A stretch of DNA of 64,000 bases from the NCBI RefSeq assembly GCF_004340785.1, contig NZ_SLXS01000004.1, positions 1-64,000 on the forward strand. Direction: 5' to 3'. A program made the position numbers and the translations under genes. This document shows positions 18,573-63,042 of the stretch, piece after piece. The notes beneath the pieces are model-generated. The model did no database searches. It had not been told where the DNA came from and saw nothing but the letters and a program-made list of their open reading frames with translations. Position 1 is the first letter of the stretch. Every line of letters starts with the position of its first letter. This stretch comes from Tumebacillus sp. BK434. GTDB lineage: Bacteria; Bacillota; Bacilli; Tumebacillales; Tumebacillaceae.

Positions 18573-19316
18573 GTGGGAATCTTACCGTTCCGACGCAAGA
18601 AATCGGAGGAGACATCAGATCTCAATCAGTTGTTGATGAAGGCACGCAGCGGGGATGAAGAGGCTCGCAACCAGTTGCTACGGGTGTACATTCCTTTCGT
18701 AGCGAAGAGCGCCTCCCAGGCAACGGGACGGTACATTCGCCGTGGGCAAGACGACGAATTCAGCATTGCGCTTGCAGCGTTTAACGAAGCGATCGAACGC
18801 TATGATTTAAGCCGTGGCACCAGTTTTCTCGGTTTTGCCGACACGGTGATCAAGCGGCGGTTGATCGACTATTTCCGCTCCAAGCAGGCGAAGCAGCGCG
18901 ACGTTCCGTTTTCCGACTTCGAAGTGGAAGATGAAGAGGAGAACGTGATCAACTACGTCGAAGTGCAAAAGTCTGTCGAAGAGCACCAGAAGCTGGTGGA
19001 AAGTGACGCCAGGCGGGATGAGATACTGCATTTTACCGAGCTGTTGATGCAGTTTGAGATCTCGATGGAAGAGTTGGTCGATCTGTCGCCAAAACATCAG
19101 GACGCGCGTGAAAATGCGATGAAAGTGGCGAAGGTGATCGCTTCGCACCAGGAGTTTTGCGAATACCTGATGACGAAGAAATCCTTGCCGCTGAAAGCCT
19201 TGATGAACCATGTCAACGTCAGCCGGAAGACGATCGAGCGCCAGCGTAAATATATCATCGCCGTTTCCTTAATCCTGATCGGAGATTTCGAAATGCTGCA
19301 AGACTATATCTTGTAA
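18573..19316 (+). CDS. sigI: RNA polymerase sigma factor SigI
   Basis: A 247-residue sigma-70-like protein has region 2 at about 50-120 (FVAKSASQATGRYIRRGQDDEFSIALAAFNEAI, cited by position) and a C-terminal DNA-binding region near 210-235 (KALMNHVNVSRKTIERQRKYI). SigI responds to heat or envelope/polysaccharide signals and is held by RsgI. GTG 18573 follows GAGGTGG; a GTG nine bases earlier lies inside the ribosome site. rsgI follows after 41 bases. Confidence 0.88.
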   Translation: MGILPFRRKKSEETSDLNQLLMKARSGDEEARNQLLRVYIPFVAKSASQATGRYIRRGQDDEFSIALAAFNEAIERYDLSRGTSFLGFADTVIKRRLIDYFRSKQAKQRDVPFSDFEVEDEEENVINYVEVQKSVEEHQKLVESDARRDEILHFTELLMQFEISMEELVDLSPKHQDARENAMKVAKVIASHQEFCEYLMTKKSLPLKALMNHVNVSRKTIERQRKYIIAVSLILIGDFEMLQDYIL

Positions 19317-49945: not shown

Positions 49946-50042
49946 GGAAGCAGATGGAGTACTGGTGTCTCTCCCGGTCTTCAAAACCGAGCGCGGCCGG
50001 TGGACCCGGCTGGGTGGGTTCGATTCCCACGTGCTTCCGCCA
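49946..50042 (+). tRNA. tRNA-Sec (selenocysteine), anticodon TCA
   Basis: A 97-base tRNA has paired acceptor ends GGAAGCA / TGCTTCC, a long D arm, anticodon loop CTTCAAA with TCA (reads UGA), a long variable arm GCCGG / CCGGC and the T loop GTTCGATTC, ending CCGCCA. This layout is specific to tRNA-Sec. No selA, selB or selD lies in the window. It marks the left edge of the island. Confidence 0.92.
49948..49991 (+). repeat. Left copy of a 44-bp direct repeat (candidate att site)
   Basis: Positions 3-46 of tRNA-Sec, from AAGCAG to ACCGAG, recur perfectly at 62513-62556, 12,565 bases away. A perfect repeat inside a tRNA at both ends of an integrase-bearing AT-rich block is the usual mark of an integrated element. 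Confidence 0.75.
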
Positions 50043-50224: not shown

Positions 50225-51173
50225 ATGTTTGGAGCGAAGACGAAACGCAAGGTTGCAAGAACTCCCACCACCACAAATGACCGTTCTTTCGTGGGAGAGT
50301 TATCGCTGGTCGAAATGTTCGAAAGATAAATGTCGCAGAAAAGGACGGAGGGCTTGGCACAGGTAACCCTAGAAGACTATGAGGTACATTTTAGATACCT
50401 GTTTGAGTACTTAGGCGGTGACATCGCCAAGGAAGACATCACTGCCGATCTGTTCAGAGCCTATATCGACTGGATGATCCATGACAAGGGTCTTTCCCCT
50501 GTAACGGCAAACGTGAGGATCAGAACAATGAGGGCGTTTATACGCTTCGCCTTTGTAGAAGGCTACATTCAATCACCGTTACATGAAAAAATCAAGCTGC
50601 TTAAAACCGAAGAAGACACGCTTGAATCGTTTACCACCGCAGAGGTCAAGGCACTTCTCGATAAGGTAGACACTTCAACATTTGCAGGATTTCGTGACTT
50701 CGTGATGATCTGCACGCTATTGGACACGATGGCTCGAATATCGGAGCTTGTCGCCCTCAAGCGAAGCAATGTCAATATAAATTAAGCTCGAAGCCCATGA
50801 AACAAAATCTCGACGTGCTAAGGACTGTCCCACAAGCAAGCTATTAGCAGATTACATGAGTGAATCAGAGGACTTTGCGGAAGAGTTATTATTTCTGTCG
50901 TATAGTGGAACTTCGATTTTGCCTAATTCGTGGAGGAGGAGATTGTCGGAATACGGGGAACTGGCTGGTATTCGAAATAAACGAGTATCTCCTCATACTT
51001 TTCGGCATACGGGAGCCTTGTTTTATATCCTCAATGGAGGCGACCCGTTTAGTTTGCAAAAGATTCTGGGTCACACGGACATGTCGATGGTCAGGAAATA
51101 TATCCAGATGACCAGTGCGGACGTGAAACGGCAGCATAATATATTTTCGCCGTTAAAAAACATAAGATTATAG
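50225..51173 (+). pseudogene. Tyrosine recombinase (integrase), broken by a stop and a frameshift
   Basis: The reading runs in three pieces. The first (50225-50329, 34 residues, good AGGGGGT site) ends at TAA, directly followed by ATG 50330. The second (50330-50785) carries the core-binding domain and the first catalytic Arg (DTMARISELVAL). A frameshift near 50780 leads into the third piece (to 51173), which holds the Lys region (HETKSRRAKDCP), HTFRH and GHTDMSMVRKYI with the nucleophile Tyr. All catalytic residues remain, but no single protein is made, so the gene is probably dead. It lies next to tRNA-Sec, as expected for the element's integrase. Confidence 0.8.
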
Positions 51174-51513: not shown

Positions 51514-52468
51514 ATGAGCAAACAATATTATAGTCCCTATTCCAAATTCGTTTTACGGTACAGATAAGCTATCCTCTCATGCGTTGTACTTGTATGCTCA
51601 TCTATACCAAGGGAGGACTTATCTTACAGATACAACAAAGACTAACCTAAGTTTGATTGAATCGGAAATAAAGTTTGTCAAGAAAGGTCAAGACAATCGA
51701 AACTATATCCTGCAAGCCTTGGAATGCCTGATTACGAGAGGCCACATCGTATGTACTTATCTTGATTTAAAAAAAGACAAGCGGCTCGACATTTCTTTTC
51801 CAAAAGTTGATGGTTATGAAAAAATTCCAGTTGCATACTCTCGGATGACTGACAATTCCGAGAAGTACATGATCCTCTGTTATATTACAAAAACTAAGCG
51901 AAGCATTTCGTATTATGAGCTTGCTGATGTACTTATTTGCTCTGTTACTCATGCCAAAAATATTATTTCTGAAATGGAGACAGAGGGACTGATACAGATA
52001 ATACAAGGGAAGTTTTTCATTAACGATGAAGGATTGCCTCGAAGAGAGAAAAATAAATACTCTGTAAATTCGGGAAATATCAAGGCGGAAAGTTCACAAT
52101 TTGAAACTATCAACAGCGAAGAGAAGGATGATGAGCCAGAACACAATTGGTATGATCGGGATGCTAAACTAAGTGTTAAGGATTTTGAGTATTATCTACA
52201 GACTGACGATGAGAAGCAGATAAGCCATGCAGAAAAGCGGATCGAAGCCATACGTCAAACTGAAGCAGGAAAGAAATTTATTGATCGTATGCTAAAAGAA
52301 GCAGAAGCCAATAATCGGGCATATGATGAATACTTTGGTAATCCAGAAAGAAAATTGAAGCAAATAATCGAATTTCAAAGGATCAATCAGCAAGTCAATG
52401 AACGAGTTCGAAATCAGAATGAAGATACAAATGATGAAAGGATTGACCTTTCAACTCTATGGGAGTAG
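51514..52468 (+). pseudogene. HTH protein of mobile-element type, frameshifted near its start
   Basis: An ATG with AGGAAAGG before it begins MSKQYY, but a one-base shift near 51530 moves the reading into the long frame (VPIPNSFYGTDKLSSHALYLYAH and onward to 52468; 294 residues from a TTG at 51584). The N-terminal 150 residues look like two winged-helix units, as in plasmid or phage replication initiators, followed by a charged helical end with a short DnaD-like look (EYYLQTDDEKQISHAEKRI region). If the shift is real the gene is damaged; if a rare start is used it may still be made. Function uncertain. Confidence 0.6.
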
Positions 52469-52747: not shown

Positions 52748-52772
52748 AATGCACCCATAGGGGTGCAAGATT
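52748..52772 (-). terminator. Terminator after the pro-peptide gene
   Basis: On the minus strand TTGCACCC-CTAT-GGGTGCA is followed by TTTTTTG. Confidence 0.88.
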
Positions 52773-52784
52773 ACTACTTCAAGT

Positions 52785-52910
52785 TCAAGAATTAGAAATA
52801 ATCCCGTGTGGCTTTGGGTCGAGGTCTGCTGCAACGTTTGAAAGATTACTTCCATTGCTGACGAGAACAACAAATGCACATAACACTAATAGTGCCAGGA
52901 TCTTTTTCAT
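52785..52910 (-). CDS. Exported pro-peptide of an RRNPP-type signalling pair
   Basis: A 41-residue frame starts nine bases after the regulator's stop and ends just before a terminator. It opens MKKILALLVLCAFVVLVSNG, a clear secretion signal, then a short polar end finishing AADLDPKPHGIISNS. Small exported peptides encoded immediately after an HTH-TPR regulator are the hallmark of the Rap/NprR/PlcR/PrgX group, where a 5-10 residue C-terminal piece is re-imported and binds the TPR domain. By analogy the signal would come from the last 10-12 residues, for instance around KPHGIIS. Layout and signal sequence are seen; peptide activity is inferred. Confidence 0.72.
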   Translation of the reverse strand: MKKILALLVLCAFVVLVSNGSNLSNVAADLDPKPHGIISNS

Positions 52911-52919
52911 TTCGACTCT

Positions 52920-54215
52920 CTACTCCCTTGCTAAGGATTCAAAAAGATCACTTCTTTTGCTTTGCAAGTCAAGAGCTTCTTCTAAATTCCCGATCTTACG
53001 ACAGGCGTCAACGGCAATTTGGAGGGCAGCAGCTTGATCTCTCACAAAACCTATTATAGCAAATATGTTAGAAGATTTTATAGCGAGTTCTTGGGCTTGA
53101 ATATAATTCTGAATTTTGTAGTGGTATTTTGCGAAAACAGCATATAGTTCCCCTAATTCAAGCGTTGTAGATATTTCAATTGATGATGCTATGTGTTGCG
53201 CTTGGCAAAGATACTCATACGCTTCTTCAACTTGTTCGGTAAGCAGATGGATTTCTGCAATTTTAGCATAAACAAAAACCACTCCTGCATGATAATTGTC
53301 CAATTCAAATTGGTTTGCACACTGAATTAGATCCTGAATTGCTTGGTCTGGATTCTCTTTGTAGGTGATAGATGCAGCCATTGTCACCTGAACACGACTA
53401 AACAATGAATTGTTGTTCAGAGTTTGATATAAGGTCTTTGCCTGATCAAAGAATTCAGATGCCCTTTGAAAGTCATCTGTGTTTTTGTACGCAATACCTA
53501 ATACATATAATGCATCGGCTAGTTTTCTTATGTCATTGATTTTTTCGTAATACGCCCCTGCCTTTTCAATGTACGGGAGGGATTCACGAATACACCCTTT
53601 TTTTCGTAAGGTTAACCCTACATTGAATGAAATGTAGGCAGCGAGATGATCAAATTCAATGAACCGGTTTATATAATCGTAGGCGCGTTTGTAGTTGTAA
53701 AGTGCTTCTTCGGTTTCTTGCAATTCGGTATAATTGTTGCCGATCTTGTTTCTGATCCATGCCAGTAAATTTGCGTCGTGAAAATTGGAAGACTCAAGAC
53801 TCTGAATCATTGGTTGCAAAATAGACAGAGCTTCTTGAAAACGTCCTTGTTGATATTTACAGTCAGCAAGAAAAACCGATAATCTTAACTTATCATATTC
53901 GGAAACCAATTCATTCTGTAGCTTAACGATCAGTTCCTCTGCTTCGGCTGGCTGATTCTTTTCTATAAGCAGCTCAACAAGTTTGATCCGGGCGTGCAAT
54001 TCCATGTTTTTGTCTTCATCTTGAAGCAATTCTTTTATTGGAATCAAAAAGGCATCAGCAATCTTATTTAGAAGATCTGCAGATGGCATTGCACGATCCT
54101 GTTCAATTGTACTAATCCACGAGATCGTTACCCCAACCAGATTCCCAAGGTCGGTTTGTGATAAGTTTCGTTCTTTTCTAAGTCTCCGTAGTCTTTGACC
54201 TAATGATTCATTCAT
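52920..54215 (-). CDS. HTH-TPR regulator of RRNPP type (receptor for the pro-peptide)
   Basis: A 431-residue cytoplasmic protein has an N-terminal Cro/C1 HTH (about 5-62; LSQTDLGNLVGVTISWISTIEQ region) and then TPR-like helical repeats to the end (about 70-425; e.g. ALYVLGIAYKNTDDFQRASE). The arrangement and length match NprR/PlcR-like receptors. The cognate pro-peptide follows nine bases after the stop. GGGTGAT precedes the ATG. Its promoter is in the 54216-54369 gap, divergent from a second HTH-TPR gene. Confidence 0.85.
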   Translation of the reverse strand: MNESLGQRLRRLRKERNLSQTDLGNLVGVTISWISTIEQDRAMPSADLLNKIADAFLIPIKELLQDEDKNMELHARIKLVELLIEKNQPAEAEELIVKLQNELVSEYDKLRLSVFLADCKYQQGRFQEALSILQPMIQSLESSNFHDANLLAWIRNKIGNNYTELQETEEALYNYKRAYDYINRFIEFDHLAAYISFNVGLTLRKKGCIRESLPYIEKAGAYYEKINDIRKLADALYVLGIAYKNTDDFQRASEFFDQAKTLYQTLNNNSLFSRVQVTMAASITYKENPDQAIQDLIQCANQFELDNYHAGVVFVYAKIAEIHLLTEQVEEAYEYLCQAQHIASSIEISTTLELGELYAVFAKYHYKIQNYIQAQELAIKSSNIFAIIGFVRDQAAALQIAVDACRKIGNLEEALDLQSKRSDLFESLARE

Positions 54216-54248: not shown

Positions 54249-54277
54249 ATTATACAGATCTTGTCATAAATCAGCAA
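54249..54277 (-). promoter_or_regulatory. Promoter of the HTH-TPR/pro-peptide operon
   Basis: On the minus strand TTGCTG and TATAAT are 17 bases apart, about 34 bases before the ATG. Confidence 0.7.
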
Positions 54278-54320
54278 TGAAGTATACAAATTTCTGTAAC
54301 TCTCTATCGGTTAATACTTT

Positions 54321-54360
54321 ACATCAAGAATTGATGTAATCAAACGAACACTTCTATAAT
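54321..54360 (+). promoter_or_regulatory. Promoter and palindromic operator of the second HTH-TPR gene
   Basis: TTGATG (54331-54336) and TATAAT (54355-54360) are 18 bases apart. The perfect palindrome ACATCAAGAATTGATGT (54321-54337; arms ACATCAA / TTGATGT) covers the -35, so a bound dimer would block this promoter. Autoregulation is likely. Confidence 0.7.
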
Positions 54361-54393: not shown

Positions 54394-55683
54394 TTGAACA
54401 TATCGTCTCTTGGGCAAAGAATTCGAGAAATACGACTTAAAAAAGGAATCACTCAAATTGAGCTTGCTTCTGGCTTATGTACTCCATCGCTTATCTCCCA
54501 AATTGAAAGTGACAGGGCGCGACCTTCTTACAAAACTCTGGTTGCGCTGGCAACTAGACTCGATGTTCCTCTTGAACATCTCTTACAAGAGGTGAATCTG
54601 GATCTTGAGTTTTCAAGTAAGTACAAGTTGGCAATGGGAATGATTCGAGGGAATGAGTTCCAAACAGCCGTCCCGTTGTTGAATGACCTCTTGGAAAGTC
54701 AACAGCACAGAATACAAAGAGAATCGTTGCTGTTGGAACTTACACGCTGCCTCGTTGAGTTAGGTAATGTCCTTGAAGCTGAAAAGGTCTTACAACAGTT
54801 GGATCAAATCTGCTTCACGGAACGGAACGATCATTTACACGTTGAAGTGTTGTTGCTGCTTGGGAAAGTCGCGGAGTTGAAAAATGAATATCCAATCGCT
54901 CTTTTCCACACGAACCGGGCTTGGAATGAATTACAAAAGGTAGAAGAGATCGACGCAGATAATCAAGCGAAGATTCTCATTCAGTTAGCCAGTCTCCATG
55001 AGCGGGTCGGAAAGGTTGCGGAGGCGGCCGAGTATTACGAGAAGGCATTGTTGCTCAATCCGTATAACGGTGAAGATCGAGGGAAGACTTTTCTCCGCTT
55101 GGCAGAGGTTTATGATCGGCAAAAGAAGTTTGAGCAAGCAGAAGAATATGCAATGAAAGCAACCGTGCTTCTGCAAGAACAAGCGAATGCCGAACAGAAA
55201 CGAGAAATGAAACATCGTTTGATCATGCTGCAGCGTGAGAAGAGCGATTGGAAAGTGAGTGTCCAAAAACTGTTGAACCTTGCAGAGCAGTATGAGCAGA
55301 TCGGTGACAAATCAAAAGCTGGTGAAGTCTTCGCTGACATCGCGCTCATCTGTTCTGAGAATGGCGAAATTGATGAATCCTGGGCTTACGCTGAAAAAGC
55401 AAGAATGAGTCTCTCGGATACTTCCCCTACTATGGGGCAAGTCCACCGTGTTCTGTCGTTTGTCTATTTTCACCGTGAAGATGAGGAGAAAGGCAAACGG
55501 CATCTCGATAATGCGGTCAAGATTTATAAGCGACATGGCAAGTTTGCGGAGCTTGAAGAGGTAACGCTACACATGTGCCGGTATCTGAATGAAAAGGGGG
55601 AGCACCGGGAAGCATTCGAGCGGATGGAGCTGCTTCACACGTATATGACAGGACAATTGGAGCAGCGTGGGATCGTGCTTTGA
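54394..55683 (+). CDS. Second HTH-TPR regulator, divergent from the first
   Basis: A 429-residue protein has an N-terminal HTH (about 3-58; GITQIELASGLCTPSLISQIE region) and TPR-like repeats (about 65-420). The start is a TTG eight bases after GGGAG; an ATG at 54370 would give almost no leader after the promoter. It resembles the RRNPP group in architecture but no pro-peptide is seen after it. Instead a 128-residue two-repeat protein overlaps its stop. Its palindromic operator and back-to-back position with the first regulator suggest a two-regulator switch. Confidence 0.82.
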   Translation: MNISSLGQRIREIRLKKGITQIELASGLCTPSLISQIESDRARPSYKTLVALATRLDVPLEHLLQEVNLDLEFSSKYKLAMGMIRGNEFQTAVPLLNDLLESQQHRIQRESLLLELTRCLVELGNVLEAEKVLQQLDQICFTERNDHLHVEVLLLLGKVAELKNEYPIALFHTNRAWNELQKVEEIDADNQAKILIQLASLHERVGKVAEAAEYYEKALLLNPYNGEDRGKTFLRLAEVYDRQKKFEQAEEYAMKATVLLQEQANAEQKREMKHRLIMLQREKSDWKVSVQKLLNLAEQYEQIGDKSKAGEVFADIALICSENGEIDESWAYAEKARMSLSDTSPTMGQVHRVLSFVYFHREDEEKGKRHLDNAVKIYKRHGKFAELEEVTLHMCRYLNEKGEHREAFERMELLHTYMTGQLEQRGIVL

Positions 55684-56066
55684 AAGTCCAATTTATGGGT
55701 GTGTACGAGCGGCAGCATTGGGAGAGGTATTCCCGGACAATGGTGCGGGTAGGAAATGCAGCAGGCTACCTGTTCATCCACAAGAATCGCCATGATCGTT
55801 GGTACTTTCGCGGTCATCGAGTGGAAGCACAAAATTTCTATCAAGCCATGGCCAAACTTGAAGAGAGTATTTTCGAAGTAGAAGGATTATCAGACGGCGC
55901 ATTGTGGGAGCGAGTTGGGGCAATGATTGGAGTGAATGGCATCTGGGGATACTTGTATAAGAGCAAGACGAGACAAGGTGGTTGGGTATGGTGTGGGCAT
56001 GAGTTTGAAGCGGAGACAGAGAAGATGGCGAAGGAGCATTTGCAAAGTTTGAGCAAGGATACATGA
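55680..56066 (+). CDS. Protein with two copies of a GYL-W-GH-EA repeat, unknown function
   Basis: A 128-residue protein begins at TTG overlapping the regulator's TGA (CTTTGA); an ATG five codons later is the alternative. It contains two copies of a roughly 40-residue unit spaced 61 apart: GY29-30, W41, GH45-46, EA49-50, A56, L60 and GY90-91, W102, GH106-107, EA110-111, A117, L121. No signal peptide, membrane helix or known family. Overlap with the regulator indicates coupled translation and a joint role. It ends at a terminator. Confidence 0.7.
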   Translation: MKVQFMGVYERQHWERYSRTMVRVGNAAGYLFIHKNRHDRWYFRGHRVEAQNFYQAMAKLEESIFEVEGLSDGALWERVGAMIGVNGIWGYLYKSKTRQGGWVWCGHEFEAETEKMAKEHLQSLSKDT

Positions 56067-56367: not shown

Positions 56368-56416
56368 TTGCTTATAAATGTTACATATCGTATGATCGAG
56401 TTACATTGAATGTAAC
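56368..56416 (+). promoter_or_regulatory. Promoter and 17-bp perfect palindrome of the integrase gene
   Basis: TTGCTT (56368-56373) and TATGAT (56391-56396) are 17 bases apart. GTTACATT-G-AATGTAAC (56400-56416), a perfect palindrome, begins four bases after the -10, over the expected start of transcription. A repressor bound there would silence the integrase. Confidence 0.7.
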
Positions 56417-56442
56417 AAAACGTATGAAAAAGGGGTATATAT

Positions 56443-56985
56443 ATGGAACTCGTACAGCCAATTCGAGACAAAAAGCAGATCGACGAGATGAAGAAGGTAC
56501 TCAGAAAACAATCGCTTCGTGACTGGTTTCTGTTTGTCCTTGGGATCAATACAGGATTACGTGTAAGTGATGAGCTCACCTTGAAGGTTAAGAATGTACG
56601 CAATCAAACACACATCACCATCAAAGAGAGTAAGACAGACAAAGACAAGAGATTTAGAATCAACGGGGCTTTGCGTGAGTGCATTGACGAGTATATTGAG
56701 AGGATGGACGATGAAGCATGGTTATTCCCATCTAGGAAGGGTGACAAAGCAATTTCGAGGGTACAGGCATATCGAATCCTGAACGCTGCTGCTGAGAAGG
56801 TCGGGGTGGAAGAGATCGGGACTCATACCATGAGGAAGACATTCGGCTACCATCACTACAAACAGAACAAAGACGTTGCCATGCTGCAGAAACTCTTTAA
56901 TCACTCCGCACCGTCCGTGACACTTCGTTACATAGGTATCGAACAAGATGAAATGGACGCATCAATTGAAGATTTCAGACTATAA
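56443..56985 (+). CDS. Tyrosine recombinase, catalytic domain only
   Basis: A 180-residue protein has the complete catalytic set: Arg in GLRVSDEL (about 38-45), Lys in ESKTDKDKRF (about 66), HTMR (about 127-130), His in FNHSAPSV (about 152) and Tyr in TLRYIG (about 161). The usual N-terminal core-binding domain is absent, as in some short Bacillus recombinases. AGGGG precedes the ATG. It is a second, intact recombinase in the island and likely belongs to the element carrying the ABC-3C genes. Confidence 0.88.
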   Translation: MELVQPIRDKKQIDEMKKVLRKQSLRDWFLFVLGINTGLRVSDELTLKVKNVRNQTHITIKESKTDKDKRFRINGALRECIDEYIERMDDEAWLFPSRKGDKAISRVQAYRILNAAAEKVGVEEIGTHTMRKTFGYHHYKQNKDVAMLQKLFNHSAPSVTLRYIGIEQDEMDASIEDFRL

Positions 56986-57197: not shown

Positions 57198-57221
57198 TGT
57201 TCTCTATGGGAGGTGTTTCTT

Positions 57222-58481
57222 TTGGCAAAAAATAGATCATTTGCAGATTCTACAGCGGCTGATGATAAATTGATTGGTTTTGAGTATCAATATTACTATT
57301 TTTTTGATCAATTATTGCAACTCAAAGATACTGATGAAAAAATTGGGATGGAGGTAAAAGATGACGTACATCTTGAGATGGGAAATAAATTAATACTTAT
57401 TCAGCTTAAACATTCTGTTCGTACAAATACCAAAGGAGATGTTATCAGCCTAAAAGAAAGAGATAGTGATATTTGGAAAACTATTCACAACTGGGTTAAT
57501 ATTACTAACGATAGTAATGAAGGGAGAGCGGATGCTTCTGCCCAAGAAGAATTTTTGAAAAAAACTAAATTCGTTTTAGTTTCCAATAAGTCAATCGGTA
57601 GAAGGAACAAGTTCTTTGATGTGATTGATGACTTTAAATGTGGAGTAATTACCATACATAAATTACGTAGCTATCTCACTCAACTGTCCGAGGGAACTGA
57701 TCAAGTAGATATAAAAACATATATTGAGGAGTTATTTGCCCAGCAAGACAACTGGATCAAGTTATTCGCTGCGGGCATTGAATTTGATCTTGGAGTAGAT
57801 GACTTAATTGAAAGAATCAAAAAGTCAATTAAAGGAAATTTTGTGCCTGAAAATGGTGTTGAGACAGTATTTCATTCTATAAATAGCAGATTAAGAGAGG
57901 AGATATACAAAATCATAAAAGAAAGAAAAAAAGTGCTTATTACTTTTGATGAATTTCATAGAAAATATACACCACATTTTTGTCTTGGAAGGGTAAACAA
58001 GTTGCCAGTACGTCGCTTGGAAGCTTTTTTTGATGGAAATGTACAAGAGCAAAATTTTATTAAACAGTTGATAGATATTGACGATCTTGATGAATCAGAT
58101 ATTGATGAAATGAGAGAATATACATCAATTATGTTGCACGCAAAAACAAATATTGAACAGTGGCAAAGAAATTATGAGATAACTAATGAAAAAATGGAGG
58201 ACTTTATAAGTAATAGTAAATTAGAATGGAGAAACGCTCATAAGGAGGCTCATTTTGACACTAAAGATCTCTATCGAACCAAGGATCGTGATTTTGAAAA
58301 AATTAATATTGTGAATGCCAGAAAGTGCTTGCATCAAGTTAGGAAAGTCAGACTTAGATTGGATGAGGACACAGAATTTGATATTAAATTCAGCAATGGG
58401 AAATATTATATGTTATCAGACCGATTAGAATTAGGATGGGTCTATGATTGGAAGAAGAGGTATAAAGAAGATGGGAGGTAA
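57222..58481 (+). CDS. ABC-3C system effector with REase-like N-terminus and C-terminal ABC-3C domain
   Basis: A 419-residue protein starts at TTG after GGGAGGTG. The N-terminal 130 residues look like a PD-(D/E)xK nuclease of the DUF4297/Cap4 style: GFEYQYYYFF, then EVKDD and QLKH as the Asp and QxK of the active site. The middle is helical. The last 60 residues (ARKCLHQVRKVRLRLDED, then SNGKYYMLSDRLELGWVYDW) match the C-terminal domain that marks proteins of ABC three-component conflict systems. It likely degrades DNA or RNA when switched on by its ATPase partner; that is inferred. Confidence 0.78.
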   Translation: MAKNRSFADSTAADDKLIGFEYQYYYFFDQLLQLKDTDEKIGMEVKDDVHLEMGNKLILIQLKHSVRTNTKGDVISLKERDSDIWKTIHNWVNITNDSNEGRADASAQEEFLKKTKFVLVSNKSIGRRNKFFDVIDDFKCGVITIHKLRSYLTQLSEGTDQVDIKTYIEELFAQQDNWIKLFAAGIEFDLGVDDLIERIKKSIKGNFVPENGVETVFHSINSRLREEIYKIIKERKKVLITFDEFHRKYTPHFCLGRVNKLPVRRLEAFFDGNVQEQNFIKQLIDIDDLDESDIDEMREYTSIMLHAKTNIEQWQRNYEITNEKMEDFISNSKLEWRNAHKEAHFDTKDLYRTKDRDFEKINIVNARKCLHQVRKVRLRLDEDTEFDIKFSNGKYYMLSDRLELGWVYDWKKRYKEDGR

Positions 58482-58923
58482 TTACATATATAACAATGAA
58501 GCTATAGGTGCGATAGCTATTGCTTCCGTAATGAAGCATTTAAAAAGCAGTAGTATTGGAAAAACGATGCTCTTTTTGCCGTTATTGCTCCATAATCCAA
58601 CAACAAACTTTTTAAAAAAGCGTAGCACTGGTGTACGTAGTTTAGAGGAACTATTGGTTAAAAAAGGTGGGTACTTTATTAACTTTGATGATCGATTTAG
58701 ATCATTATTACCGATCTCATTAAATTCACTTCTGGTTTTAGCTGAAATAGGAGTTATCAATGTGGATGACGGAATGGTTAGGTATAATACTGAGTCTAAG
58801 TTTGATATTAATACAAACATTGGAAATCGAATAACGAATATCATTATGGCATCTGAGAAACTGGCGATGATAATGAAAGAAGAGACGGGAAATCTATACT
58901 TACAATTGAGGGTGAAATTATGA
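58471..58923 (+). CDS. ABC-3C system middle component
   Basis: A 150-residue protein begins with an ATG overlapping the effector gene by 11 bases. The start NYIYNNEAIGAIAIASVMKHL and the TMLFLPLLLHNPTTNFLKK stretch (about 29-47) are typical of the small 'middle component' of ABC-3C systems, found between effector and ATPase. It is thought to bridge the two. Its stop overlaps the ATPase start (ATGA). Confidence 0.78.
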   Translation: MGGNYIYNNEAIGAIAIASVMKHLKSSSIGKTMLFLPLLLHNPTTNFLKKRSTGVRSLEELLVKKGGYFINFDDRFRSLLPISLNSLLVLAEIGVINVDDGMVRYNTESKFDINTNIGNRITNIIMASEKLAMIMKEETGNLYLQLRVKL

Positions 58924-60788
58924 ACTTTTGCATAAGCAAATTGATTCTTTGGCTTTCTAACGGCGAACAACGCATCTTGGAATTTATGCCTAATAAGGTG
59001 AATGTAATTACTGGGGATAGTGAAACGGGTAAAACAGCAATTTTCGAGATAATTGATTATATATTATTTTCAAGTGAGACAAAAATTTCCGAAGAGGAAA
59101 TAAATGAATATGTAGATTGGTATGGGATGCATTTTTCTATTGGCAGCAAAGAATTAACTCTAGCTAGGAAGAAATTTGATGCTTTTAGAAAGGTTTCTCA
59201 AGATTATTACTTTTCAGGAAGTGGGGTAATTCCGAAGTCACCCGAAAAGAATATTCAAGAAAAACTACTTAAAAAAATTATTGAATCAGAATTTTCTATT
59301 TCCAGTGATACGATAATTCCTTATGGAGGTAAACATATAAGGGCGGGTTCAAAAATATCACTTCGATATTTCTTGCTATTTAACTCTCAATCTGGAGATA
59401 CGATTTCACATAGTGAGCAGTTCTTTGATAAAATGGCTGAACCTAAATATAGAGAAGCACTTGAGAGGGTCTTCGATCTGGCAACAGGGATTGAGTCAGT
59501 CGAGAATATACTCATTAAAGAGAAGATCGATAACTTGCAAAGAGAAATAAATAAATTGGAAAATAGAAAGAAGTCACAAGAACTCGATATGGAAAGTTCT
59601 AATCTAGAAGATATGATCGCTAAAGCAAAGGAATTTAATCTAATTCCAGAAAATAACAAAACGTATGAGGAGGATTTGTTTGATCTTCAATTAGTGTCAA
59701 AGGACTTTAATGCACAGAAAGTAACAACCGAATTGAATGATTTAGAAGAGATTAGAATGGAACGGATATCGATTGCAAGAAGAATAAAAATAATACAGAA
59801 ATACAAACAAGATTATACTAAATATAAGGAGTCTGAAGCGGATAATTTAGATAGTCTGAGGCCAATCCAATATCTGAAAGAGAACTTTCTTGAATTAATC
59901 GAGTCTCCCGATGTTAGACAATTTATTTTATCTCTTGATAAAGAGTACCGTTCATTAAAGAAGTCCTTGCGTAAAAGGACTCCTATTGAACAAAATTTAG
60001 ATGACGAGCTGCAAGAACTACAAATAAGATTTGATGAGCTAGAAAAAATTATTTTGAGATACCCACAAAGCAATCCAGGATCTACTTCGCTTTTGGAAAA
60101 AATACTATTTATCGCAGAGGTACGCGGGAGATTGAATTCCGTGACTTCCAAAAAATTAGATACAAGCGTCGATCAGCAGATTCTGTCAATAATTGAGGAT
60201 CAGAAAGAATTGAAAGAAAAGTATATTGATCGGGATGAAGCACGAAGTAGAGTATTGTTGTTGCTCAATGAACTAATTCAAAAATATTTGGATAAAGCAT
60301 CAGATGAAGGTGCATTAGACACATATAATCGCTATAGATCTTCATTTGATTATAAAGGGAAACGATTACAGCTTAGAAAACCAAACACACTTGTTCCTTC
60401 ACATGTTGGCAGTAGTTCCAATCACCTGTTTATGCATATTTGCCTATTTCTTGGGTTGCACGAATTAATGGTTATTCAACAAATACCTTACGTTCCAAGG
60501 TTTTTATTGCTCGATCAACCGAGTCGTCCTTATTATGGAGAGGCTAAAAGGGAAATCAGAGGTAGTGAGGCATCTTGGGAGGATATAAAAAATGATGATA
60601 GAGAGAAAATAACAACTGTGTTCAGATTGCTGAATCATTTCATCGATGAAATCAACAAGCATGGTGTTAATTTTCAAATGATAGTTTTGGAGCATATTCC
60701 AGAGAATGTTTGGACCGAGGCAAAATTAGAGAATATTGTCTTGGTGGAAGAGTTTAGAAAAAATGGAAATAAATTGATTAATTTATAA
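58920..60788 (+). CDS. ABC-3C ATPase, DUF3732 type
   Basis: A 622-residue SMC/RecN-like ATPase has Walker A GDSETGKTA (about 31-39), a long coiled-coil-like middle (about 170-470), and the C-terminal half with LLLDQPSRPYYG (Walker B, about 523-534) and a His-switch-like MIVLEH. This is the DUF3732 family, the ATPase of ABC-3C systems. No transmembrane segments. The start overlaps the middle-component stop, so the three genes form one coupled unit, ending at the hairpin at 60814. Confidence 0.85.
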   Translation: MNFCISKLILWLSNGEQRILEFMPNKVNVITGDSETGKTAIFEIIDYILFSSETKISEEEINEYVDWYGMHFSIGSKELTLARKKFDAFRKVSQDYYFSGSGVIPKSPEKNIQEKLLKKIIESEFSISSDTIIPYGGKHIRAGSKISLRYFLLFNSQSGDTISHSEQFFDKMAEPKYREALERVFDLATGIESVENILIKEKIDNLQREINKLENRKKSQELDMESSNLEDMIAKAKEFNLIPENNKTYEEDLFDLQLVSKDFNAQKVTTELNDLEEIRMERISIARRIKIIQKYKQDYTKYKESEADNLDSLRPIQYLKENFLELIESPDVRQFILSLDKEYRSLKKSLRKRTPIEQNLDDELQELQIRFDELEKIILRYPQSNPGSTSLLEKILFIAEVRGRLNSVTSKKLDTSVDQQILSIIEDQKELKEKYIDRDEARSRVLLLLNELIQKYLDKASDEGALDTYNRYRSSFDYKGKRLQLRKPNTLVPSHVGSSSNHLFMHICLFLGLHELMVIQQIPYVPRFLLLDQPSRPYYGEAKREIRGSEASWEDIKNDDREKITTVFRLLNHFIDEINKHGVNFQMIVLEHIPENVWTEAKLENIVLVEEFRKNGNKLINL

Positions 60789-60813: not shown

Positions 60814-60842
60814 AACCGTGTCCATTATGGATGCGGTTTTTG
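60814..60842 (+). terminator. Terminator of the ABC-3C operon
   Basis: AACCGTGTCCA / TGGATGCGGTTTTTG; nearly the same sequence recurs at 61352-61377. Confidence 0.8.
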
Positions 60843-61040
60843 TTTTCCGAATCACTCATTATCATAGTTCCCCAGTTGATATTAGTATTATAGAAAATGG
60901 GAGAATGACCTTGATAAACGGCGCAACTCATAGTAAATTTGTAGTAGAGTTCGCTAGGGCTTTACGCACGATACGCCATGACTAACAAGTCCCAAACGCC
61001 AAAAATCCTTGCTATAACTGACCTCTCGGCCTCACACGCG
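60843..61040. other. Short intergenic region before the tRNA-Ser fragment
   Basis: A 60-codon frame crosses this stretch but opens inside the terminator, so it is doubtful. TATAAC near 61012, 29 bases before the tRNA fragment, may be the old tRNA-Ser promoter. Confidence 0.35.
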
Positions 61041-61351: not shown

Positions 61352-61377
61352 CCGTGTCCATATTGGATGCGGTTTTT
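61352..61377 (+). terminator. Second copy of the CCGTGTCCA terminator
   Basis: CCGTGTCCA / TGGATGCGGTTTTT, near-identical to 60814-60842. The two flank the tRNA-Ser half and the 58-residue gene. Confidence 0.75.
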
Positions 61378-61481
61378 AATTTCGAGAATCGACCATGAGT
61401 TAGTCAGGTTAAATGAACAGGAAAACTAATCGATTAGTCGAAAATGTAAATGAATAACATCATTAGTTAAGGGGGATTGTC

Positions 61482-62186
61482 ATGTCATTTTGGTTTGTCA
61501 TCGGTGGTTCGATATTACTTTCTATCTGGCTTGAACGTGCAACAAAAAAGAGAAGACAAAAAGCGAAGTCAGGCAAACGCCGATCTGCACCTAGGGTCAA
61601 TACAACTCCGCCTGCGCCATCAACTGAAATTCGCCCGGATGTGGTCATTCTTCAAACATCGCTGCAGGAGCTTTCAGGATTCGAGTTTGAACGGCTGCTC
61701 GCGCTTTATTTCCGAGATCAAGGGTACAAGGTTGAGGAAACCGGAGTGGGCGGGAAGGACGGCGGAGTTGATTTGGTGCTGGTGGATCGAAGAGGGGAGC
61801 GGACTGCTGTTCAGGCGAAACGGCATTCTGATCATAATAAGGTACCTGTACAAAAGGTGCGTGAATTTGTTGGAGCGAAACGAAATCACAATTGTGTACT
61901 CACTCTTCTTATCACCACATCGGATTTAACTGAGCCTGCTAAGAAAGAGGCGGAGCAGTTCCATATGGAATACTGGCACGGTGGACTTTTAGAACTGAAG
62001 TTGGCTACATGGGGAAAGTATAATCCGACGAAACAGAAGCAAAGAGCTGTGCGCAACGAGGCAGCCACTACGCGCGAAGTCATTTGTAAGTGCGGTCATT
62101 CGATGGTGATCCGCAAAAACAAGCAAGGCGTGTCATTTTACGGCTGCTCCCGTTTTCCGAATTGTCGACATACCACGTCAATCTAA
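61482..62186 (+). CDS. Membrane-anchored Mrr-type restriction endonuclease with topoisomerase-type zinc ribbon
   Basis: A 234-residue protein starts at an ATG after AAGGGGG. It has an N-terminal transmembrane helix (about 4-17), a basic linker, then the Mrr-type REase fold (about 60-165: LSGFEFERLLALYF, GVGGKDGGVDLVL with the active Asp, VQAKRHS with the QxK) and a four-Cys-type zinc ribbon at the end (CKCG then YGCSRFPNC, about 205-227). Mrr proteins cut modified foreign DNA. The zinc ribbon resembles those at the end of topoisomerase I. Confidence 0.85.
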   Translation: MSFWFVIGGSILLSIWLERATKKRRQKAKSGKRRSAPRVNTTPPAPSTEIRPDVVILQTSLQELSGFEFERLLALYFRDQGYKVEETGVGGKDGGVDLVLVDRRGERTAVQAKRHSDHNKVPVQKVREFVGAKRNHNCVLTLLITTSDLTEPAKKEAEQFHMEYWHGGLLELKLATWGKYNPTKQKQRAVRNEAATTREVICKCGHSMVIRKNKQGVSFYGCSRFPNCRHTTSI

Positions 62187-62510: not shown

Positions 62511-62607
62511 CCAAGCAGATGGAGTACTGGTGTCTCTCCCGGTCTTCAAAACCGAGTGCGGCCTATGGTGTAGGCTGGGTGGGTACGATTTCCACGCACT
62601 CCGGCCA
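62511..62607 (+). pseudogene. Second, defective tRNA-Sec copy
   Basis: The copy aligns without gaps to the intact tRNA-Sec over 97 bases. The first two bases differ (CC for GG), the next 44 are identical, and then 13 of 51 differ. The acceptor strands no longer pair and the T loop reads GTACGATTT. The variable arm still pairs (GCCTA / TAGGC) with both sides changed, which suggests the 3' half comes from a different, once functional tRNA-Sec. Confidence 0.8.
62513..62556 (+). repeat. Right copy of the 44-bp direct repeat (candidate att site)
   Basis: Identical to 49948-49991. Together they bracket about 12.6 kb containing the integrases, regulators, ABC-3C genes and the Mrr-type gene. Confidence 0.75.
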
Positions 62608-63042
62608 AATCAACATCTTCTACATACAGTCTCGCGTTTTGGCATAGCCCACAGTCTGGGCGTTCGAACATGCTAATAGGTAGACTTTTTGATATGGCAA
62701 AGGCGTCGTTTGACGCACGTTTGAGAGATCGTAAGGATTGGGTAGGCAGCGACTTTGACAAGGCATCGGAAATCTTTATCGCGGATTGAAAACGTGCGGG
62801 CTGCACCGAGCGGACTGAGGTTGGACAAATTCTATAGATTCTTTTATTCTGAACATGCATTTGGAGCAGGAAGACGGAGGGTGGCGGCCCTATAATGTCC
62901 TCCTGCTTTCTGTTGTTTGTTTGCATCTAGCATACGACAAGCTAGCGAAAATTTCTCCAGCAATGATAATGAGAAAGCCTCTCAATTTCTCTATCGTGAA
63001 AACAGAGCGACTACATAATATAGTGAGTAGTGAGGTGTAAAG
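62608..63042. other. Intergenic region with coding debris
   Basis: About 435 bases. A 31-codon plus frame from 62695 (MAKASFDARLRDRKDW, stop near 62789) reads like a protein fragment without a ribosome site. No intact gene or RNA is seen. A ribosome site for the next gene is at 63032. Confidence 0.3.

Follow-up and report, generated by a model that had tools for sequence, protein, structure and literature searches.

Genes A and P of the soil bacterium Tumebacillus sp. BK434 form, by every testable feature, an RRNPP-type receptor–pheromone system and belong to a lineage-specific subfamily. This assignment follows from exported frames throughout the receptor clade, a shared pheromone core, purifying selection, a retained peptide-anchoring Asn and a Rap/NprR-like fold. 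Taking the locus as a whole, we consider it probable that the peptide alters the grip of A on an operator and thereby switches a divergent gene pair, B–C. The analysis started from a window of 64,000 nucleotides, the whole stretch of DNA under study (contig NZ_SLXS01000004.1, positions 1 to 64,000), in which the pair is laid out as follows:

52920–54215, minus strand: A, HTH plus nine-TPR receptor/regulator with peptide-anchoring Asn198 (431 aa; Pfam domains and structural model)
52785–52910, minus strand: P, 41-aa pro-peptide with predicted export, frame sequence MKKILALLVLCAFVVLVSNGSNLSNVAADLDPKPHGIISNS, predicted pheromone core AADLDPKPHGII
52750–52767, minus strand: intrinsic-terminator-like hairpin TGCACCCCTATGGGTGCA followed by TTTTTTG, 3' of P

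The ATG of P lies 9 nt past the stop codon of A. The Pfam families HTH_31 (4e-14) and TPR_12 (3e-25) were detected in A, with HTH_19 and HTH_3 also above cut-off, and the secretion signals of the propeptides were assessed by hydropathy and composition. All sequence statements of an earlier sequence-only reading (a 431-residue HTH–TPR gene, a 9-base gap, a 41-residue secreted frame and a terminator) were confirmed; its assignment of the two genes to an RRNPP-type pair gained support from the clade-wide exported frame, the anchor Asn and the HTH plus TPR architecture. That reading had overlooked B, C, the operator and the exchange of modules described below.

A was searched in its own genome and 100 related genomes, and the region downstream of each receptor was read; the full set of 38 receptors proved too divergent for its alignment to serve in a locus search. 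A short exported frame was found after all 42 homologous receptors, which come from seven genomes of the family and form a single clade (support 100); the gap between receptor and peptide frame was 266 nt in one of them. Under a fixed rule (start codon −40 to +20 nt from the receptor stop, basic start, hydrophobic stretch, 30–85 aa), 33 of 36 clade members passed versus 3 of 463 other genes from the same stretches (Fisher p ~1e-44, which is no true probability because clade members are related). One of these three other genes was a distant HTH–TPR gene with a look-alike peptide. The pN/pS values for P of 0.05/0.19, 0.04/0.43 and 0.07/0.38, from comparisons between the own genome, T. avium and a further genome, G002, reflect mostly silent-site change, with few changes in all, and indicate purifying selection; pN/pS was low for A too. 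The expectation of the earlier reading that an exported frame with a varying C-terminus always follows the regulator held across the clade, the C-terminus varying around a shared core. Homologues lacking the frame, or a frame unconserved at the amino-acid level, were sought in the clade and none was found.

The A clade was present in all seven family genomes, and the other seven genomes of the order contained more distant HTH–TPR proteins only. Among 398 genomes sampled across the phylum, matches outside the own genome were weak. Copy number was about five in the own genome (G000, 4.65 Mb) and about 20 in T. avium AR23208. A literature search returned no study of these systems in Tumebacillus and no experimental record of A–P. 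RRNPP_detector reports candidate systems in bulk in Alicyclobacillaceae (PMC10075063). This is the NCBI family assignment of Tumebacillus, and some of its A–P pairs may already figure in those lists.

Residue 198 is Asn in all 42 A-clade receptors and aligns with residue 201 of PlcR, N201, which we take to be the equivalent of the peptide-binding Asn. In RRNPP receptors, a conserved Asn binds the peptide backbone (PMC3601957). The remaining three peptide-linked receptors in the tree (L009, L013 and L015) have the anchor Asn as well; these belong to the own genome, fall outside the A clade and likewise come with exported peptides, that of L015 carrying FIHDAEPL four times. Among bacterial proteins of solved structure, PlcR was the best full-length match to the clade profile (3e-17). 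An AlphaFold model of A built from 5 sequences (mean pLDDT 79.9) replaced a 3-sequence model (pLDDT 69); it comprises the HTH and 18 helices, corresponding to nine TPRs, within the range of five to nine seen in RRNPP receptors, with residues 143–188 poorly modelled. NprR (5dbk; Z 20.5, 3.4 Å over 256 residues), Rap, AimR and PlcR were among the closest solved structures. The fold by itself is not decisive, since generic, unrelated TPR proteins scored as high as RRNPP ones in the same search.

The propeptide C-termini share the core A-x-D-x-x-P-x-P-[MLH]-x-I. In nearly all of them the core behind the leader extends to 12 residues and reads approximately A-[YV]-D-x-G-P-x-P-[MLH]-[GS]-I-x; position 8 is Pro in 42 of 43 and position 1 is Ala in 33 of 43. 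The core pattern occurred in 39 of 44 tails compared with 4.7 in shuffles, a figure that is descriptive because the pattern was chosen with the data already seen. Two or three tandem copies were present in 13 of the 44 propeptides, and that of L092 carries VIDPADPF three times; multi-pheromone propeptides with tandem units are already known (PMC11343458). The motif KPHGIIS, singled out by the sequence-only reading, does lie in the C-terminus of P, but by itself it is not the conserved core, which is AADLDPKPHGII. P may be cleaved after the Ala at position 1. Peptide and TPR divergence were weakly correlated (Spearman 0.11, with 24 of 1000 permutations as high), and a core common to so many propeptides could mean crosstalk, not private channels.

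On the other side of A, a conserved intergenic region separates the receptor from two further genes:

54249–54277, minus strand: predicted A promoter (TTGCTG, 17 nt, TATAAT), identified by eye in the aligned conserved intergenic region, absent from the scan list
54319–54339, no strand: operator, perfect 21-bp palindrome TTACATCAAGAATTGATGTAA, probable A site
54331–54360, plus strand: predicted B promoter (TTGATG 54331–54336, 18 nt, TATAAT 54355–54360), from a promoter scan, conserved
54394–55683, plus strand: B, divergent HTH–TPR paralogue lacking a peptide gene, with Gln in place of the anchor Asn (TTG start; longest frame from 54370)
55680–56066, plus strand: C, 128-aa protein with no family match, overlapping the B stop

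B falls in a different clade from A; the 16 members of the B clade all carry Gln where A-clade receptors have the anchor Asn. C was found solely behind B genes; family and structure searches gave no match of C to any family or solved structure. The divergent B is missing in about half of the A clade, so B–C cannot be its general output. The own genome also holds two lone B–C pairs (L019 and L022) that lack A, P and the operator.

The −35 hexamer of the predicted B promoter falls within the palindrome. The distance from the palindrome to the A transcription start, predicted by eye on the conserved alignment, is about 87 bp. In the six loci whose A carries the recognition helix VGVTISWISTIEQDR (the window, L031, L061, L063, L065 and L066), the palindrome shows one mismatch or none. 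L071, whose helix is VGVTIGWISQIEQNK, has three mismatches, and the palindrome is absent from lone B genes that have the standard B helix. This match between helix and operator amounts to fewer than six independent events, because the six operator-bearing loci partly share the region by descent. The regions upstream of paired and lone B genes were compared for a shared B operator, and none emerged. Since the palindrome tracks the recognition helix of A and is missing at lone B genes, A rather than B is most likely its binder, and the pheromone most likely switches B–C locally. The overlap with the −35 hexamer suggests repression of B–C, while a centre near −38 is compatible with activation; repression is slightly favoured.

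At up to two mismatches, the own genome contained a single operator site, and in three whole genomes the sites lay between A and B genes or remnants, with one exception, a two-mismatch T. avium site inside a B gene by coordinates. At three mismatches, the count in the own genome equalled that of the reversed-pattern control (8 versus 8). These numbers bear on the notion that A is a PlcR-like global regulator and B–C just one of its targets. PlcR and NprR regulate distant genes, and A may use sites looser than the tested pattern; even so, one site in 4.65 Mb, and no excess over the control at three mismatches, make a wider regulon unlikely.

Beyond the observed anatomy, homology, conservation, operator uniqueness and differing module histories, we infer the following course of events. 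P would be exported through Sec and trimmed to a short peptide around DLDPKPHGI, which would be re-imported by the oligopeptide permease. The peptide would then sit in the TPR groove of A, with Asn198 holding its backbone, and its binding would alter the hold of A on the single 21-bp operator over the −35 of the B–C promoter, so that B–C is switched with local peptide concentration. B, which has neither a peptide gene nor an anchor Asn, would form the output together with C. Swapping of sensor/peptide, HTH/operator and B–C parts between loci could give rise to many parallel channels, the present copy being carried on a tRNA-targeted island.

The ends of this island and its remaining features are:

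49946–50042, plus strand: tRNA-SeC (selC), left island end
50330–51173, plus strand: broken tyrosine integrase (frames 50330–50785 and 50856–51173)
51584–52468, plus strand: 294-aa protein with a weak winged-helix match, also on the T. avium island
56443–56985, plus strand: short tyrosine recombinase, catalytic domain only, common to related islands
62513–62609, plus strand: selC copy, 87%, first 44 nt identical, right island end

A tRNA gene, an adjacent (broken) integrase, a tRNA repeat at the far end and syntenic outer flanks (with T. avium, left to 50044 and right from 65404) are the features of a tRNA-targeted island, and the earlier placement of the pair on a mobile island is thus supported. 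Three genes at 57213–60788 match the Lamassu defence proteins LmuA, LmuC and LmuB, and an Mrr-like nuclease with a topoisomerase-type zinc-finger end is encoded at 61482–62186. A 20-bp repeat, GAATGTAACAAAACGTATGA, with its variants occurs in three copies (56376–56427 and 59649–59668), two of them just before the recombinase gene at 56443; these repeats are possible recombinase sites. A 32-bp direct repeat (60816–60847 and 61352–61383) is 88% identical over copies 536 bp apart.

Related islands were found elsewhere. In T. avium, other A–B modules lie next to the same tRNA gene (tRNA-SeC), and a 91% relative of A lies on an island bracketed by tRNA-Ser copies, with a second such island in tandem (tRNA-Ser copies at L124:8293–8381 and 18670–18758 and L125:11138–11224); the two islands have one A–B–C module each. 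G002 has related content flanked by two tRNA-Pro copies. Of the clade members in the three genomes examined, most had no integrase within 10 kb. Signalling is thus a trait of the family, and mobility a property of some copies.

The sequence-only reading had proposed that the pair lets cells sense how many neighbours carry the island. On such a view the pheromone would report these neighbours, and A would control excision, transfer or the defence genes. The location of the pair makes this possible: selC and its copy enclose the pair, two tyrosine recombinases and a Lamassu-type set, and the A–B–C–recombinase block recurs in the T. avium tRNA-Ser islands and partly in G002 at tRNA-Pro. Plasmid and phage RRNPP systems can act in this way (PMC10075063). 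Against it, the operator was found only between A and B and not before the second integrase (the recombinase), the Lamassu or the Mrr-like genes of the island; the first integrase is broken, most clade relatives lack a nearby one, and no conjugation genes were recognised on the island. The proposal gained no support from operator sites or neighbouring genes, and we give it about the same low standing as a wider regulon.

Less likely still is that the island copy is a non-functional relic of a functional family. The integrase is broken here, and A is truncated in G002 and in one T. avium copy; in the window, by contrast, all four genes (A, P, B and C) are intact, as are both promoters and the operator, and pN/pS is low for P and A. 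That P is instead a small membrane toxin or secreted antimicrobial peptide merely regulated by A, as a short hydrophobic frame next to an HTH protein with below-cut-off matches to antitoxin and phage repressor models might suggest, is very improbable given the conserved polar C-terminal core, the tandem cores, the lack of a modification or immunity gene, and the constant presence of the frame and the peptide-anchoring Asn across the receptor clade.

Returning to a peptide-controlled A that switches B–C, comparison between loci shows separate histories of its parts, because identity to the window shifts sharply at module borders. L031 is 98% identical in the HTH, 90% in the TPR region and 68% in B; for L063, L065 and L066 the values are 82–88%, 38–40% and 64–72%, and for L071 65%, 37% and 83%. 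The units exchanged are accordingly TPR plus peptide, HTH plus operator, and B–C. A bolder version, which we hold only tentatively and as less probable than not, treats the peptide-sensing receptor A and its 'deaf' paralogue B (Asn to Gln) across one operator as a bistable unit, with TPR and peptide swapped under a fixed HTH and operator; Tumebacillus strains would gain private channels by cassette exchange, partly via tRNA islands. In G002 (L126:1453–2640), a far-diverged HTH–TPR gene with its own peptide (core STPEPLGII) precedes B–C.

Several known systems resemble A–P in part. NprR/NprX of the Bacillus cereus group shares the HTH with nine TPRs, a Sec-type propeptide gene just downstream and, in some propeptides, tandem units. 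It differs in its remote sequence similarity and peptide core (NprX has approximately SKPDIVG), and A–P has a divergent B and an operator of its own. PlcR/PapR, from the same group, includes the best full-length sequence relative of A, with the anchor Asn aligned and a palindromic operator; PlcR has five TPRs and a wide regulon, unlike the nine TPRs of the A model and the one operator in the genome. AloR/AloP of Paenibacillaceae, compared by description, likewise shows a large lineage-specific HTH–TPR expansion with each receptor followed by a propeptide gene, but the bacterial family and the peptides differ (PMC7425212). Rap/Phr systems with tandem pheromones have several units per propeptide and the TPR fold (PMC11343458), whereas Rap has a 3-helix bundle in place of the HTH and acts on proteins, not DNA.

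Phage RRNPP systems divergent from a c1-type repressor are similar in that a receptor–peptide pair faces a second, operon-leading regulator (PMC10075063); here the second regulator is itself an HTH–TPR protein paralogous to the receptor, with no phage genes behind it. AimR differs in its encoding by temperate phages: viral contigs gave no match to A, phage and plasmid records gave distant ones only (21–31% identity over long stretches), and the neighbourhood of A showed no recognisable phage structural genes. RRNPP receptors with nine TPRs are already described, as are expanded families (PMC12700828, PMC7425212). From the described subfamilies known to us, A–P is set apart by a paralogous HTH–TPR gene facing it head to head, an operator that seems private, and the exchange of modules.

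The locus adds to RRNPP systems a lineage-specific subfamily whose members share a pheromone core and differ in the sensor, and in which natural domain swaps join the same HTH and operator to another TPR region and peptide. With a shared core, differing sensors and existing swaps, how peptide–receptor specificity changes without loss of function is directly testable on natural pairs, and with one operator and a two-gene output the circuit should be easy to rebuild in Bacillus subtilis.

Some A genes have large neighbours that were considered as peptide synthetases; they encode RHS-repeat proteins instead. At three loci (L134, L138 and L112), A–P pairs adjoin such proteins; one of these ends in an HNH nuclease and another in an ADP-ribosyltransferase-like region, and at these RHS-linked pairs peptide signalling perhaps controls contact competition.
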